Position numbers and translations under genes: made by a program
IMG/VR virus record: IMGVR_UViG_3300009194_000052
Location: 1 to 22,245 of that record
Origin: a virus
Strand: one strand, 5' to 3'
Length of the DNA: 22,245 nt
The notes under the pieces: model-generated
What the model saw: the letters and a program-made list of their open reading frames with translations, nothing else
Database searches by the model: none
What the model was told of the DNA's origin: nothing
Shown here: one piece after another, positions 7,109-22,245 of the stretch
How the letters are laid out: each line of letters opens with the position of its first letter
Numbering within the stretch: position 1 is the first letter of the stretch

Positions 7109-7975
7109 ATGGCTTACACCGAAGAAGAACTCGCCGGCCTGACCGCCGAGGAACGCGCCGCGCTCGAAGAGGACGACGGCACCGAAACCGACGAGGAAGA
7201 GGACGATGAAACAGAATCCGGCGACGAAACTGAAGCGGATGCTGGCGACGATGCTGCTGAAGGCGCTGATGACGGCGAGCAGCAAGCCGACGATAGCGCA
7301 GATGACAGCGACGAGGGGGATGAATCCGGGGCTGAGCGTTCGCAGCAGCAAGGGCCGATCCTGGTAGCCGAGGCGCCGGAGAAGGCCGAAGAGCGCCTGG
7401 GCGAGATCAAGACCGCCAAGGCCGACCTGCGCAAGAAGTACGACGATGGCGAACTGACGTTCGACGAGTACGAAAGCCAGGTCGAGGCGCTGGACGACGA
7501 GCGCATGGAGATCCGCCTTGCGCTCAAGGAGGCCGAGACGGCAGCCAAGATCGAGCACCAGCGCCAGGTCAACGAGCGCGAGGCGCAGATCAACGGCTTC
7601 CTGGCTGAGATCGGGGTGAAGCGAGACTTCTCCGACCTGCGGTTCGCTGCGCTGGACAACGCGGTGAAGATCATCGCCAGCAAGGAAGAGAACGCCGACC
7701 TTGGCGTGCGCGAGATCCTGGAGAAGGCTTACGGCCTATGCGTCGAGCAGGGCGTGATCCAGAAGAAGGCCGACAAGGCGCCCGAGGTTCAGGCCAAGCC
7801 GCGCAAGCCGATCGCCACCGTTCCGAACCTGGCGAAGGTGCCGGCCGCTGACCAGACGGATACCGACGACGGCAACCGTTTCGCCTACATCGACCGCATA
7901 GCCGACCCGGTGGCGCGCGAGAAGGCATTCCAGAAGCTGAGCCCGGCCGACCAAGAAGCCTACCTTTCCACATAA
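7109..7975 (+). CDS. Capsid scaffolding protein
   Basis: A 288-residue protein. After MAYTEEELAGLTAEERAALE, residues 21-75 are almost entirely Asp/Glu with Ala, Gly, Ser and Thr. Residues about 92-165 are predicted coiled coil (EKAEERLGEIKTAKADL; YESQVEALDDERMEIRLALKEAE; RQVNEREAQINGFL). Basic and Pro-containing segments lie in the C-terminal third (KADKAPEVQAKPRKPIATV). Very acidic, helical, low-complexity proteins just ahead of the coat gene are the hallmark of P22-type scaffolds, which assemble with coat through a C-terminal helix and leave before packaging. Good start context (GAGGA 10 bases upstream of ATG 7109). Assignment rests on position and composition, with no catalytic motif. Confidence 0.78.
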   Translation: MAYTEEELAGLTAEERAALEEDDGTETDEEEDDETESGDETEADAGDDAAEGADDGEQQADDSADDSDEGDESGAERSQQQGPILVAEAPEKAEERLGEIKTAKADLRKKYDDGELTFDEYESQVEALDDERMEIRLALKEAETAAKIEHQRQVNEREAQINGFLAEIGVKRDFSDLRFAALDNAVKIIASKEENADLGVREILEKAYGLCVEQGVIQKKADKAPEVQAKPRKPIATVPNLAKVPAADQTDTDDGNRFAYIDRIADPVAREKAFQKLSPADQEAYLST

Positions 7976-8191: not shown

Positions 8192-8220
8192 TTGCAAAAG
8201 TGAACCGCCACGCCGATAAT
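8192..8220 (+). promoter_or_regulatory. Sigma70-type promoter ahead of the major capsid gene
   Basis: TTGCAA at 8192-8197 and GATAAT at 8215-8220 are separated by exactly 17 bases. The 14 bases 8214-8227 (cgataatcagaccg) are identical to 909-922 at the terminase promoter. CGGTT (8189-8193) and AACCG (8203-8207) make a 5-bp inverted repeat over the -35, a possible operator. This promoter would add transcripts of the most abundant virion protein. Confidence 0.65.
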
Positions 8221-8240
8221 CAGACCGTCATAGAGCGCAG

Positions 8241-8283
8241 GAGCTGCCTATGGATTTATTTCATATCCACATGAGGGTAGCTC
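8241..8283 (+). promoter_or_regulatory. Hairpin leader directly before the capsid start codon
   Basis: GAGCTGCC (8241-8248) pairs with GGTAGCTC (8276-8283), 8 bp including one G-U. Inside it, TGGAT (8251-8255) pairs with ATCCA (8265-8269) around a 9-base loop. The structure ends two bases before the capsid ATG at 8285 and partly covers its Shine-Dalgarno GAGGG (8273-8277). It also contains GGAG plus ATG at 8250, the start of a possible 34-codon ORF (8250-8354) that overlaps the capsid gene in another frame. Confidence 0.4.
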
Positions 8284-8284
8284 C

Positions 8285-9382
8285 ATGGCTCAGACCGTCA
8301 TTCCTTTCGGCGATCCGAAAGCTGCGAAAAAGTGGTCCTCGGCTCTTGCCGTAGACCAGATCAAAAAGTCCTACTTCGAGCGCAAGTTCATCGGCGAGTC
8401 CGACAACTCGGTCATCCAGAAGAAGACCGAGCTGGAAACCGACTCCGGTGACCGCATCAGCTTCGACCTGTCCGTGCAGCTGCGCGGCGAAGCAACCGAG
8501 GGCGATGCTCGCCTCGAGGGCAAGGAAGAAAGCCTGAAGTTCTACACCGACGAGGTGGTCATCGACCAGACCCGTAAGGCTGTCTCGGCCGGCGGCAAGA
8601 TGACCCGCAAGCGCACCCCGCACGACCTGCGCAAGGTCGCCAAGGATCGCGCCTCCGACTACTGGGCTCGGTACATGGACGAGATGATGTTCATCTACCT
8701 GTCCGGTGCCCGCGGCATCAACAAGGACTTCCTGTTCCCGACCGATTGGGCTGGTCGCGCGCAGAACGCCATCCAGGCGCCTGATGCCGGCCACATGCTC
8801 TACGGCGGCGATGCCACCAGCAAGGCGACCCTGGCGGCTGACGACAAGATGACCCGCAATGTCATCGAGCGCGCTAAGGTTCTCGCCACCATGCTCCAGG
8901 CCCAAGACCCGGATGCCGCCAACATGGCGCCGCTGACGATCGAAGGCGAAGAGCACTACGTCCTGCTGATGAACCCGTTCCAGGCGCACGACCTGCGTAC
9001 TGCCGCCGGTTCCGAGTGGCTGGACGTGCAGAAGGCCGCCGCTGCCGCTGAAGGCAAGAGCAACCCGATCTTCAAGGGTGGCCTGGGCATGATCAACAAC
9101 GTGGTCCTGCACGAGCACCGCAACGGCATCCGCTTCAGCGACTACGGCGCTGGCAGCAACGTCGAGGCCGGTCGCGCCCTGTTCATGGGTCGCCAGGCTG
9201 GCGTGGTCGCCTACGGCACCCCAGGCGGCATGCGCTGGACCTGGGAGGAAGAGCTGAAGGACTACGGCAACGAGCCGACCGTCGCCTCGGGCGCCATCTT
9301 CGGCTTCAAGAAGTCCCGCTTCAACGGCAAGGATTTCGGTGTGATCAGCATCGACACCGCTGCCGCCAACCCGAACGCCTAA
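8285..9382 (+). CDS. Major capsid protein (N4 gp56 family)
   Basis: A 365-residue coat protein of the N4-gp56/DUF4043 family (PF13252, HK97-fold capsids). Family features visible include the N-terminal WSSALAVDQIKKSYFERKFIGESDNSVIQ, the strand-rich block TELETDSGDRISFDLSVQLRGE, LEGKEESLKFYTDEVVIDQTRKAVSAGGKMT, and the C-terminal LFMGRQAGVVAYG and WTWEEELKDYGN. Length is typical. Codons are strongly biased to the C-ending forms of a highly expressed gene. It follows scaffold and portal in the usual head order. GAGGG lies seven bases before ATG 8285, and a dedicated promoter and structured leader lie upstream. Confidence 0.93.
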   Translation: MAQTVIPFGDPKAAKKWSSALAVDQIKKSYFERKFIGESDNSVIQKKTELETDSGDRISFDLSVQLRGEATEGDARLEGKEESLKFYTDEVVIDQTRKAVSAGGKMTRKRTPHDLRKVAKDRASDYWARYMDEMMFIYLSGARGINKDFLFPTDWAGRAQNAIQAPDAGHMLYGGDATSKATLAADDKMTRNVIERAKVLATMLQAQDPDAANMAPLTIEGEEHYVLLMNPFQAHDLRTAAGSEWLDVQKAAAAAEGKSNPIFKGGLGMINNVVLHEHRNGIRFSDYGAGSNVEAGRALFMGRQAGVVAYGTPGGMRWTWEEELKDYGNEPTVASGAIFGFKKSRFNGKDFGVISIDTAAANPNA

Positions 9383-17678: not shown

Positions 17679-17717
17679 TGGTTCGATTGTGCATAGAATG
17701 ATCAGAAAACCGAACCA
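17679..17717 (+). promoter_or_regulatory. Promoter-like element inside an inverted repeat before the GNAT gene
   Basis: A perfect 7-bp inverted repeat, TGGTTCG (17679-17685) and CGAACCA (17711-17717), encloses attgtgcaTAGAATgatcag, with a -10-like TAGAAT at 17694-17699. No good -35 is found at 16-18 bases (TAGTGG at 17671 is poor), so an activator or phage factor may be needed. The loop resembles the element at 21050-21065. A start near 17706 would exclude the left arm. The right arm runs into the weak AGG that serves the gene at 17730. The 56-base gap 17674-17729 is otherwise empty. Confidence 0.45.
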
Positions 17718-17729
17718 GGCACAGTCATC

Positions 17730-18152
17730 ATGCTGATTTTTGGCGAGAGCGAGCGACTTCTACCGTGGGCTGCTGAGCGCATTGGGCTTCAGCGGTTCCA
17801 GCCTGGCGCGCGCGCGATCGGCATCGAGGGCAAAGGCGGCCTGCGCGGCGTGGTGGTCTACGACAATATCGGGCCAGCCGACTGCAGCATGCACGTTGCC
17901 AGTGACGGCAGCGGGCGCTGGCTGACTCGAGAGTTTCTGTGCCACGCCTTTTCCTATCCATTCATCCAGCTGCGCCTTCGCCGAGTCACGGCCATGGTGC
18001 CGGCCAAGAACCTGCACGCGCTCCGCTTCGACGAGAAGCTGGGCTTCGTGCGCGAGGGGTATCACCCGCACGGCATGCCAGACGACGACCTGATCTCGCT
18101 CGGCATGCTGCGAAAGAACTGCCGATTCATTCCCCAGGAGTACCGCCAATGA
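17730..18152 (+). CDS. GNAT-family N-acetyltransferase
   Basis: A 140-residue protein with the GNAT pattern: a beta-rich N-terminal half (AIGIEGKGGLRGVVVYDNIGPADCSMHVASDG) and, at residues 84-110, RRVTAMVPAKNLHALRFDEKLGFVREG. This is the usual 'v.a.v...N..A....eklGF..eg' acetyl-CoA/substrate strand and helix. The preceding helix (WLTREFLCHAFSYPFIQL) takes the position where many GNATs have the R/Q-x-x-G-x-G/A pyrophosphate loop, but that loop is not obvious. The fold is therefore more like small phage and RimJ-type relatives. Substrate unknown. It is the first gene after a promoter-like element and overlaps the next gene by ATGA, tying it to the ejection protein genes. Confidence 0.82.
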   Translation: MLIFGESERLLPWAAERIGLQRFQPGARAIGIEGKGGLRGVVVYDNIGPADCSMHVASDGSGRWLTREFLCHAFSYPFIQLRLRRVTAMVPAKNLHALRFDEKLGFVREGYHPHGMPDDDLISLGMLRKNCRFIPQEYRQ

Positions 18153-19396: not shown

Positions 19397-19785
19397 ACGG
19401 ATCAGCGTTTGGAGGGCTGGCGGAAGGCCTCGCCGGCGGCATGAGCAACACCATGTCGCTGATGAACCTCGCCCAGAAGAAGAAGGACAAGGCCGCTCCA
19501 GTCTCGAGCGATGTCAGCGGCGAGAAGATGGGCTTGCAGGACACGCCAGAACCTGAAGGCGGCGACATCGTGTCGGACTCGTGGAGCACGCTGAAGGGTA
19601 TCGTCGGCGGCCCGGCCGGCGGCACAGCGCTCGGCTCCACGCCGGCCGGCGGCATCATCGAAAGCGGAATGAAGAACTCGATTGCCGGCAAGCTGCTCGG
19701 CGGCGGCATCGGGAACACGATCATCGGCAAGCTGGGCGGCGATAAGCTGCTGAGCAAGGGTCTGGTTGGAGGCCTACTGAAATGA
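19393..19785 (+). CDS. Small Gly-rich protein, possible internal virion protein (130 aa)
   Basis: Overlaps both neighbours by ATGA. Very rich in Gly, Ala, Ser and Lys, with no Cys. Residues 1-26 (MNGSAFGGLAEGLAGGMSNTMSLMNLA) and 95-130 (SIAGKLLGGGIGNTIIGKLGGDKLLSKGLVGGLL) are amphipathic glycine-zipper-like segments able to insert in membranes; the middle is acidic and disordered. Such proteins are common among ejected or internal head proteins that help make the channel for DNA entry. The role is inferred from composition and from lying between two ejection-type genes. Confidence 0.6.
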   Translation: MNGSAFGGLAEGLAGGMSNTMSLMNLAQKKKDKAAPVSSDVSGEKMGLQDTPEPEGGDIVSDSWSTLKGIVGGPAGGTALGSTPAGGIIESGMKNSIAGKLLGGGIGNTIIGKLGGDKLLSKGLVGGLLK

Positions 19786-21026
19786 GCTTCGCAAACTTCG
19801 GAATCGGCATCGGGGCGTTAGCGCAGGGCCTGAGCAGCGGGATCGACACAGGCGCAAAGCTCCACGGCCTTATGCAGCAAGGGAAATTGCGCAAGGCCCG
19901 CGAGGCAGGCATGGCCGACGCCAAGACGGCGCGTCAGTCGGCGATCGACGGGCTGGTGCAGGTCGGATCGACATCGAACGCCGACAACACCATGACCATG
20001 CCGACCTTCAACGTCGGCGATCAGAGCTATTCGGACGAGGCATCCGCGAGGAAGGCGGCCGAGGGTCAGGTCGGCAGCCTCGACGAGTTCTACATCAAGG
20101 TCGCGGCGCCCAAGATTTACGAGGAATACCTGGCGATCGACCCAGAGAAGGCGGAAGCCTGGAAGGCCTGGAACGACGCCAAGGAGGTCAAGCAGGGGCA
20201 AAAGCTTTGGGCCAGCGCCGTGATGAAGGCGAACATGGGCGACTTCGACGGCTTCGGCAAGGATCTCGTGAAGGCCTACAACTCCCGCGGCTACTTCGAC
20301 GACGGCACGCAGGTGAAGGACTGGAAGACCCTGAAGGACGACAAGGGCAACATCACCGGCGCGCAGCTGACGTTCAAAGGCCCTGACGGCAAGGAATACT
20401 CGCAGGTCATCAACGGGATGGAGGACGCCTATCGCATGGGTGCCTTCATGCTGTCGCCCGAGAACGTGTTCAACACCGGCTGGTCCGAGATCCAGGCGGC
20501 GAAGAAGGCGCAGCTCGAAATGGCGAAGGAAGATCGTAAGTTCCAGCGCGACGTTTACCGTGATGACCGCAAGGCCGCCAACCAGTCCGCCCTGCAGAGC
20601 CAGCGTGACGATGCCGCACTTGAGCGCACGGTAACCGGCAAGCAGATGGACGCGGCGAACAAGAACGACGCGGTGGACCGCAAGGTCGAGATACTGAAGC
20701 GGAACAACTACTCGGACGAGTGGATCGCGCAGAACCTTCCGGCGATCCTCGGCATCGGCGAATACAAGAAGGCGATTTCGCCGGATGACGCGCGCCTGCG
20801 CCTGCACGAGGGCCGTATCAAGAACGACTACAGCTACGCTCGCAAGAGCCAGGCCGAGCAGCGGGCGATCATCGAGCAGGACATGCAGATGATCTACGGC
20901 AGCCAGCCGCAGCAGCGCAGCAATCCCTTGTCCGGCGGGATATCCGGCCAAGGCGCCAGGCCGACCGGGCGCGTCCCGATGATCTACGACACCACCACCG
21001 GCAAGACGGTGCCTTACTCCCGGTAA
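19782..21026 (+). CDS. Probable ejection/internal virion protein (414 aa)
   Basis: The N-terminus (MSFANFGIGIGALAQGLSSGIDTGAKLHGLMQQGKLRKAREAGMADAKTARQSA) has a Gly-zipper-like hydrophobic stretch followed by a long helix, a frequent opening of phage pilot/internal virion proteins. The rest is largely helical and charged (EEYLAIDPEKAEAWKAWNDAKEV; AKKAQLEMAKEDRKFQRDVYRDDRKAANQSALQSQRDDAAL), with one mixed region around 190-230. The C-terminus is Gly/Arg/Pro-rich. No enzyme motif is visible. It overlaps the previous gene by ATGA and is followed by a 76-base gap with a promoter-like inverted repeat. Function is inferred from position between the S74-tailed protein and the transglycosylase protein. 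Confidence 0.65.
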   Translation: MSFANFGIGIGALAQGLSSGIDTGAKLHGLMQQGKLRKAREAGMADAKTARQSAIDGLVQVGSTSNADNTMTMPTFNVGDQSYSDEASARKAAEGQVGSLDEFYIKVAAPKIYEEYLAIDPEKAEAWKAWNDAKEVKQGQKLWASAVMKANMGDFDGFGKDLVKAYNSRGYFDDGTQVKDWKTLKDDKGNITGAQLTFKGPDGKEYSQVINGMEDAYRMGAFMLSPENVFNTGWSEIQAAKKAQLEMAKEDRKFQRDVYRDDRKAANQSALQSQRDDAALERTVTGKQMDAANKNDAVDRKVEILKRNNYSDEWIAQNLPAILGIGEYKKAISPDDARLRLHEGRIKNDYSYARKSQAEQRAIIEQDMQMIYGSQPQQRSNPLSGGISGQGARPTGRVPMIYDTTTGKTVPYSR

Positions 21027-21034
21027 ACCCTGCT

Positions 21035-21097
21035 GCCCTCGGCGGTCGGATTGTTCTATCATCGGACCATCCGCACCGTAACCGAACCGCCGAGGGC
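21035..21097 (+). promoter_or_regulatory. 12-bp inverted repeat enclosing a -10-like element and covering the next gene's RBS
   Basis: gccctcggcggt (21035-21046) and accgccgagggc (21086-21097) are perfect inverted repeats with a 39-base spacer. The right arm contains the GAGGG (21092-21096) that is the Shine-Dalgarno for GTG 21103, so a full-length transcript could hide it. Inside the spacer lie TATCAT (21057-21062), a poor -35 (CTGCCC, 18 bases upstream), and a nested CGGAT/ATCCG pair (21047-21051 / 21069-21073). There is no T-run after the stem, so it is not a usual terminator. Confidence 0.5.
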
Positions 21098-21102
21098 ATA
21101 TC

Positions 21103-22245
21103 GTGGCTGAAAACCGCTTCCTCCAGTCCCCCATCGACAAGCTGATCGAAGAGTCCAAGAGCTACGAACTGCCCAAGATTGAGCTCCCGGAGCGATCCGA
21201 ACCGCGCAGCGCCGCGCAATCCATGCGCACCAGCGGCCTGATGCCGCCGCAGAACTTCCAGCCGATCTTCGAAGAGGCTAGCGCCGAGTATGGCGTTCCG
21301 CTGAACGTGCTCGCCGCGCTTGGCCAGCAGGAATCGAGCTACAATCCGAGCGCGGTCGGTGCGCGCACGAAATGGGGCCGCGCCAAGGGCCTGATGCAGT
21401 ACCTTGACAGCACCGCGAGCAGCCTCGGCATCAATCCGTTCGACGCCAAGCAGTCGATCCATGCCGCGGCCAAGCAGCTGCGCGAGCGCCTGGACAAGGG
21501 CTACACCCTCGAAGAAGCCATCATGGCGCACCACGGCGGCGACGATCGCAGGCAGTGGGGCCCGAAGACCCGCCAGTATGTGCAGGACGTGATGGGCAAG
21601 GCCGGCAAGATCGGCCAGGGCTTCATGCAGAACGCCCAGGCTTCCGCCGAAGAGGCCGAAGAGTTCGACCTGTCCGCCATCCAGGCCGAGCTCGATGCCA
21701 AGGAGCCGGGCCGCTACAAGGTCGTGATGCCCGGCCAGGAGCCGCCTTCTCCGCTGCGCCCTGACGTGCAGCAGGAAATGATCAAGACCGGCGCCGATCC
21801 GGTCGAGGCCGCGAAGGCTGTCGCCGCAACCACGCCGCAATCCGCACCGGCAGCCCAGACGCCGGCTGTGCAGACTCAGGCGCAGGAAACGCCAGACGAT
21901 GGCGGCATGCTGAGCGATGCCGGCAACCTCCTGTGGATGGGCACAACCAGCGCAGCGCAGAACCTGCGCGAGCTCGTCAGCCGCATTCCGGTGGTGGGCG
22001 AAAGCATTGTGCGGGCCGGCGATGCCGCCGACCGCTGGCTGCAGGGCAAGGACTCCGAAACCCTGCTGCGCGAAAGCATCGAGGCCTCCCGCAAGGATCT
22101 GACGCCCGAGCAATCGCAGGCGCTCAACAAAGCCTGGTGGGATTCCGAGAAGGGCACCTTCGGCCCGGCCTGGAGCGATCCGCGCGCCTATGCCGGCGGC
22201 ATCATCCAGTCCCTGCCGGAAACGGTGCTGACCATGGGGGCAGCC
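21103..22245 (+). CDS. Large ejection protein with N-terminal lytic transglycosylase domain (3' partial)
   Basis: Starts at GTG 21103 with GAGGG six bases upstream and stays open for 381 codons to the window edge. Residues about 52-165 form a Slt-type lytic transglycosylase domain: NVLAALGQQESSYNPSAVG with catalytic Glu77, then AKGLMQYLDSTASSLGI (GLMQ at 96-99), AAAKQLRERLDKGYTLEEAI, and MAHHGGDDRRQWGPKTRQYVQDV, where AHHGG replaces the usual AYNAG. After a disordered Pro/Gln/Ala linker (about 205-265), helical segments begin and a hydrophobic stretch starts at the edge (GGIIQSLPETVLTMGAA). It would open peptidoglycan during DNA entry. The full protein is probably very long, as in other podoviruses, but its end is not visible. 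Confidence 0.85.
   Translation, partial: MAENRFLQSPIDKLIEESKSYELPKIELPERSEPRSAAQSMRTSGLMPPQNFQPIFEEASAEYGVPLNVLAALGQQESSYNPSAVGARTKWGRAKGLMQYLDSTASSLGINPFDAKQSIHAAAKQLRERLDKGYTLEEAIMAHHGGDDRRQWGPKTRQYVQDVMGKAGKIGQGFMQNAQASAEEAEEFDLSAIQAELDAKEPGRYKVVMPGQEPPSPLRPDVQQEMIKTGADPVEAAKAVAATTPQSAPAAQTPAVQTQAQETPDDGGMLSDAGNLLWMGTTSAAQNLRELVSRIPVVGESIVRAGDAADRWLQGKDSETLLRESIEASRKDLTPEQSQALNKAWWDSEKGTFGPAWSDPRAYAGGIIQSLPETVLTMGAA

Follow-up and report, generated by a model that had tools for sequence, protein, structure and literature searches.

A conserved hairpin with a promoter/operator-like motif in its loop precedes the giant DarB-like gene of Bcep22-like podophages

The window analysed here is the whole stretch of 22,245 nucleotides from virus record IMGVR_UViG_3300009194_000052, and the features of the locus described below all lie on its plus strand. 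At its end an open reading frame starts with GTG and runs off the window (21103–22245); residues 56–154 of its product form an SLT transglycosylase domain. Given a homologous N-terminus carrying this domain and an adjoining gp74-like gene, sequence comparison identifies the frame as the 5' part of the giant DarB-like virion gene known from Bcep22-like podophages, which comprises 4,816 amino acids in a near-identical 60-kb contig; in phage JC1 over a fifth of the genome encodes the giant DarB-like protein. A first-pass annotation of this DNA had spoken of a transglycosylase gene, which is correct for the SLT domain near the N-terminus, although that domain is only part of a giant DarB-like protein. 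The upstream gene (414 amino acids, 19782–21026), whose relatives are annotated as 'virion associated' and Bcep22 gp74-like, ends with a TAA stop codon at 21024–21026, leaving an intergenic gap of 76 nt.

This gap contains an exact inverted repeat, whose left arm TGCCCTCGGCGGT (21034–21046) begins 7 nt after the upstream stop codon and is separated by 39 nt from the right arm ACCGCCGAGGGCA (21086–21098), identified both by the repeat search and by the fold. The perfect 12-bp repeat reported earlier (21035–21046/21086–21097) is therefore real and exact, but its length is 13 bp. It is the sole perfect inverted repeat of at least 11 bp with a loop of up to 60 nt in the window. As had also been stated, the right arm harbours the Shine-Dalgarno (SD) sequence GAGGG (21091–21095), located 7 nt before the GTG start codon. 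In the predicted fold of the read-through RNA the SD is paired with 21037–21041, and the −10-like hexamer TATCAT (21057–21062) falls exactly inside the apical loop at 21057–21063. The folding energy of the 151-nt region was −52.2 kcal/mol (z = −2.6). Since 4.5% of dinucleotide shuffles of the window also contained a 13-bp inverted repeat, the repeat alone is only marginally unusual and no more than suggestive.

The start of the giant gene was located in about 40 related loci, among which two groups share the arrangement: the group of the window (the window/L022, L027, L038, L039, L041–L044, L046 and L047) and the Lessievirus group (Bcep22, BcepMigl, BcepIL02, DC1, JC1, CSP3, L057 and L060–L065). 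In all 23 sequences the giant gene is preceded by a gap of 76–84 nt and the motif TAnnATC is kept in the loop, and in 22 of them a long hairpin closes the ribosome binding site (RBS), L027 forming it only weakly. Left arms comparable to that of the window occur in the relatives, and the stem is interrupted in the window's group. The −10-like box of the relatives reads TAGAAT or TAAAAT, its positions T1, A2, A5 and T6 being kept in 23/23 sequences while the stem sequences vary. Outside these groups, gaps of 8–27 nt were found in Pavtokvirus, Lastavirus, Skulduggery, Parlo, Itty13 and some contigs, with an open RBS in those that were refolded, and L049–L052 possess a gap of 57–58 nt with a −10-like TACAATC, no RBS hairpin and an open RBS. 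Several relatives thus keep the gene while lacking the complementarity, a situation which the first-pass annotation had named as evidence against a switch and which in part speaks against one. The short-gap relatives lack the whole module and do not contradict a switch, since their gaps offer no room for a loop promoter either; the gap classes indicate that the gene is separable from the hairpin, whereas hairpin and loop motif co-occur. In the genome contig scan the N-terminal region of the giant frame differed in two rhizobial relatives (L053, L054), which were left out.

Paired changes in related phages were examined in two ways. Column-wise covariation (RNAalifold and column counts on MAFFT alignments) was modest with few pairs changed on both sides, because the SD fixes the right arm and the middle stems are shifted relative to one another. 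The closest contigs were uninformative, L001, L002 and L005 having an identical gap and L006 being identical up to its end at 21064. An arm-swap test was therefore used in place of the column-based methods, and own arms paired best: the summed energy over the 23 sequences was −730 for own arms and −571 for swapped arms (0/20,000 permutations; within the clades 0/20,000 for the Lessievirus group and 0.00015 for the window's group), permutation values which are inflated by the relatedness of the sequences. Furthermore, with the partners slid by one column, no more than 48% (instead of 77%) and no more than 47% (instead of 83%) of the cells remained paired. Judged by this pairing, the predicted hairpin is kept by selection, and it is its conservation in the relatives, not the window alone, which raises it above chance.

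A chance repeat, a tRNA remnant or an intrinsic terminator could in principle account for the structure. The shuffling result would agree with a chance repeat, which is at odds with its retention in 22 of 23 relatives. The loops of the Lessievirus group resemble a reverse-strand tRNA T-arm, a resemblance that arises from the operator-like palindrome described below, and neither ARAGORN nor Rfam found a tRNA or a known RNA family at the junction. On the 3' side the stem is followed by CATATCGTGG, so that the U-run which, after a GC stem, would mark an intrinsic terminator is missing; terminator prediction made no call in the gap upstream of the giant gene, and the flanking genes are co-directional. 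Taken together, we regard this set of explanations as scarcely credible.

The loop sequence itself belongs to a recurrent element. In the window, TATCAT is part of a promoter/operator-like palindrome copy (TTGTTCTATCATCGGACCA, 21051–21069) with 3/16 mismatches to TGGTTnGATnATCnAACCA, and from the motif spacing transcription is predicted to start at the A at 21069, at the CCA end of the motif. Promoter prediction called no sigma70-type promoter at 21057–21062 and no −35 is recognisable in the window's group, the window copy included, in line with the earlier description of the −35 as poor. The loop motif TAGAATCGAACCA yielded 29 matches with at most one mismatch in 11 genomes (giant-gene copies counted) versus 0 for the backward control. 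In the annotated genomes of BcepMigl and JC1 the forward copies are intergenic and face genes on the same strand, with one exception: in BcepMigl they precede gp24, gp29, the capsid gene and DarB, with one more before a reverse-strand gene, and in JC1 they precede gp22, gp31, the capsid gene, DarB and the holin gene. In many copies a TTGACA- or TTGnAA-like hexamer is found 17 nt upstream. The −10 box lies within the palindrome TGGTTnGATnATCnAACCA, whose copies are often paired at a distance of about 20 bp and are present as well in the divergent region that separates the repressor gene from the transcriptional-regulator gene (position 7394 in BcepMigl, L084, and 5771 in JC1, L085). This position beside the repressor gene suggests that the palindrome is a repressor operator. 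The near-identical 60-kb relative (reverse complement, ~46681–46731) has a weak palindrome copy upstream of a gene for a putative HTH regulator.

Searching the window with the palindrome of the relatives returned two sites, 904–922 and 21051–21069 (expected 0.00). A pattern fitted post hoc to the window copies matched exactly three sites, 910–922, 8215–8227 and 21057–21069 (expected 0.02), which precede the gene at 1021, the capsid gene and the giant gene, respectively. The first of these (GATAATCAGACCG, plus strand, palindrome 904–922) lies upstream of a gene that looks like the small terminase subunit. The copy at 8215 belongs to the plus-strand sequence TTGCAA-N17-GATAAT followed by CAGACCG (8192–8227) upstream of the major capsid gene (8285), and TTGCAA-N17-GATAAT is a candidate capsid promoter. 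A further pair of operator-like, half-matching palindromes, spaced by about 20 bp, was noticed at 17679–17717, just upstream of the gene at 17730. Within the hairpins the pairing partner of the loop motif lies 5' of it in the Bcep group and 3' of it in the window's group; since the side differs, the motif seems to be conserved as DNA and not as RNA structure.

The predicted start site allows the accessibility of the SD to be compared between two transcripts. RNA reading through from the upstream genes would possess both arms and fold the SD shut, whereas RNA started in the loop at ~21069 lacks the left arm and should therefore present an open SD. Averaged over the 23 sequences, opening the SD costs 13.6 kcal/mol in read-through RNA versus 4.7 kcal/mol from the predicted +1. 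For the window these costs were 14.9 and 4.5 kcal/mol (from ~21069), so that the earlier claim of an RBS closed in read-through RNA and free in the shorter RNA is supported computationally. The lock is modest in Bcep22 (7.3 vs 3.6 kcal/mol) and weak in L027 (5.2 vs 4.4 kcal/mol), a near-exception. Regarding the dependence of the RBS on its 5' context, the giant gene ranked 1st of 24 genes tested in the window, 1st of 47 in BcepMigl and 2nd of 50 in JC1. This bears on the view that the hairpin arises incidentally from tandem palindromic operators, whose half-sites TGGTT/AACCA are complementary, and that its effect on the RBS has no role. Operator-like copies are indeed paired ~20 bp apart here and elsewhere, and some inner stems use the half-sites. 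Yet the 13-bp stem of the window lies wholly outside the operator at 21051–21069, the lower stems of most relatives join the SD to a matching left arm with own arms fitting best, and the motif-bearing genes gp24, gp29 and capsid in the BcepMigl and JC1 lists show no equally strong 5'-context effect. We thus consider a mere by-product highly improbable.

The strongest rival to a two-transcript gate is translational coupling: ribosomes ending the upstream gene would melt the left arm, and output of the giant protein from the polycistronic mRNA would scale with translation of the upstream gene, leaving the loop promoter secondary or with another purpose. In most relatives the upstream stop codon sits a few nucleotides before the left arm, where a terminating ribosome could open the hairpin, and with 10 or 12 nt past the stop occluded the mean SD cost dropped to 6.0 or 3.9 kcal/mol, respectively, compared with 13.4 kcal/mol otherwise, which is near the value for the own promoter (4.6 kcal/mol). 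The short-gap relatives with their open RBSs are, moreover, arranged for a simple operon or coupled translation. On the other hand, at an occlusion of 10 nt the cost was still 8.7 kcal/mol in the window and 9.9–11.6 kcal/mol in several relatives, and in a 76-nt gap the arm has to begin near the stop anyway. Coupling also leaves the promoter/operator motif in the loop of 23/23 sequences unexplained. We therefore judge it to be rather unlikely, while noting that it could act together with a loop promoter.

Other leaders of these phages were inspected as well. In all six Lessieviruses examined the tail-fibre gene, too, is preceded by a conserved hairpin that hides the RBS (CCCTCGCACATCGTC.../GACGATTGCGAGGG before ATG); it lies in a gap of 160–168 nt in BcepMigl (38880–38990, gene at 38978) and JC1 (36390–36490, gene at 36484), and its loop carries no promoter motif. 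RBS-hiding hairpins can thus exist without a promoter, which counts against the two-transcript gate at the DarB-like leader. The leader of the capsid gene contains a long stem in which an AGGAGCTGCC-like stretch is paired with the surroundings of the capsid SD (window 8215–8285; BcepMigl 30264–30331; JC1 28590–28660), together with an SD-like AGGAG and a start codon upstream of the real start, and a CsrA-like gene lies directly upstream of it in BcepMigl and JC1.

The tail-fibre hairpin, along with the near-perfect long stems of most relatives, would also fit a mechanism in which RNase III or another nuclease cuts the stem, so that the left arm is lost and the RBS becomes accessible, or the stability of the mRNA is determined. 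Such cleavage requires neither a conserved TAnnAT(C) nor a palindrome in the loop, yet both are kept, and the interrupted stem of the window's group is a poor fit, which makes the nuclease explanation improbable.

The arrangement of a two-transcript gate has a precedent in phage T4, where e, soc, 49 and I-TevI carry a late promoter inside an RBS-sequestering hairpin and about 100-fold less lysozyme is synthesised from the long transcript (PMC3014915, PMC2988022). In its working principle the DarB-like leader is similar to the switch of T4 gene e: a helix conceals the SD of read-through RNA, as predicted here for the window and 21 of 22 relatives and weakly for L027, a promoter nearby upstream would give RNA without the 5' strand, hairpin and putative promoter are retained together in relatives, and the product of gene e is a cell-wall enzyme too. 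In contrast, T4 uses TATAAATA late promoters with gp55 and the outcome was shown experimentally, whereas here it is predicted from sequence; the −10 TATAAATA of T4 late promoters is absent from the loop, which has TATCAT/TAGAAT instead. The present case, from a podophage family of the temperate type, would involve a sigma70-like predicted promoter with an operator-like palindrome and concerns a giant virion gene.

Closer at hand, the DarB-like leaders of Bcep22, BcepIL02, BcepMigl, DC1, JC1 and CSP3 share with the window the homologous gene pair, a comparable gap and a hairpin whose right arm contains the SD and whose loop contains TAGAATCGAACCA. Unlike the window's group, where none was seen, they possess a TTGAT(A/C/T) hexamer as −35 in the left arm, 16 nt upstream. 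Mycobacteriophage stoperators, which are dispersed, asymmetric repressor sites that halt elongation (PMC9283540), are similar in that many copies of one regulator-like site lie in short intergenic gaps; the Bcep22-like site differs in being a palindrome that contains the −10 box. The JC1 paper mentions neither a promoter nor a hairpin at the DarB-like leader, and no description of this arrangement was found in the literature searched, which did not include the original Bcep22/BcepIL02 paper.

The computational analysis shows a hairpin that is shared with relatives, a recurrent promoter/operator motif and a predicted difference in how accessible the SD is; the original observation is confirmed. 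We consider it only just probable that a two-transcript translation gate with a loop promoter is the best explanation of the 76-nt gap. The hairpin loop would then hold a phage-type promoter whose −10 box lies inside a palindrome resembling the binding site of a phage repressor or another regulator, and the giant DarB-like protein would be made mainly when its own promoter is active and not with every transcript of the structural operon. Promoter activity, start site, regulator and the physiological role of such a gate are inferred. As the hairpin–loop-promoter arrangement is kept in more than 20 relatives, efficient translation of the giant gene probably requires its own promoter. The dedicated-promoter switch proposed by the first-pass annotation is plausible, with a −10 from a recurrent family and with hairpin and motif kept, although the window copy lacks a good −35; it gains support from the recurrence of the element that includes the weak −10, and is in this sense partly supported.

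More tentatively, and with some doubt on our side, a single element may act at three levels, as operator for a phage regulator, as promoter and as RNA lock on the RBS, so that a temperate phage family would keep its giant virion protein under a double lock. If so, the promoter would be repressed in the lysogen and any read-through RNA untranslatable, production of the giant protein would be uncoupled from the capsid operon during lytic growth, and a switch of the T4 e type, kept in two phage groups, would exist outside the T-even phages. The motif provides a candidate promoter/operator for Bcep22-like phages, and the gate, if true, would extend control of the T4 lysozyme/I-TevI type to an unrelated, temperate-type phage group and offer a testable account of how these phages limit their giant DarB-like protein.
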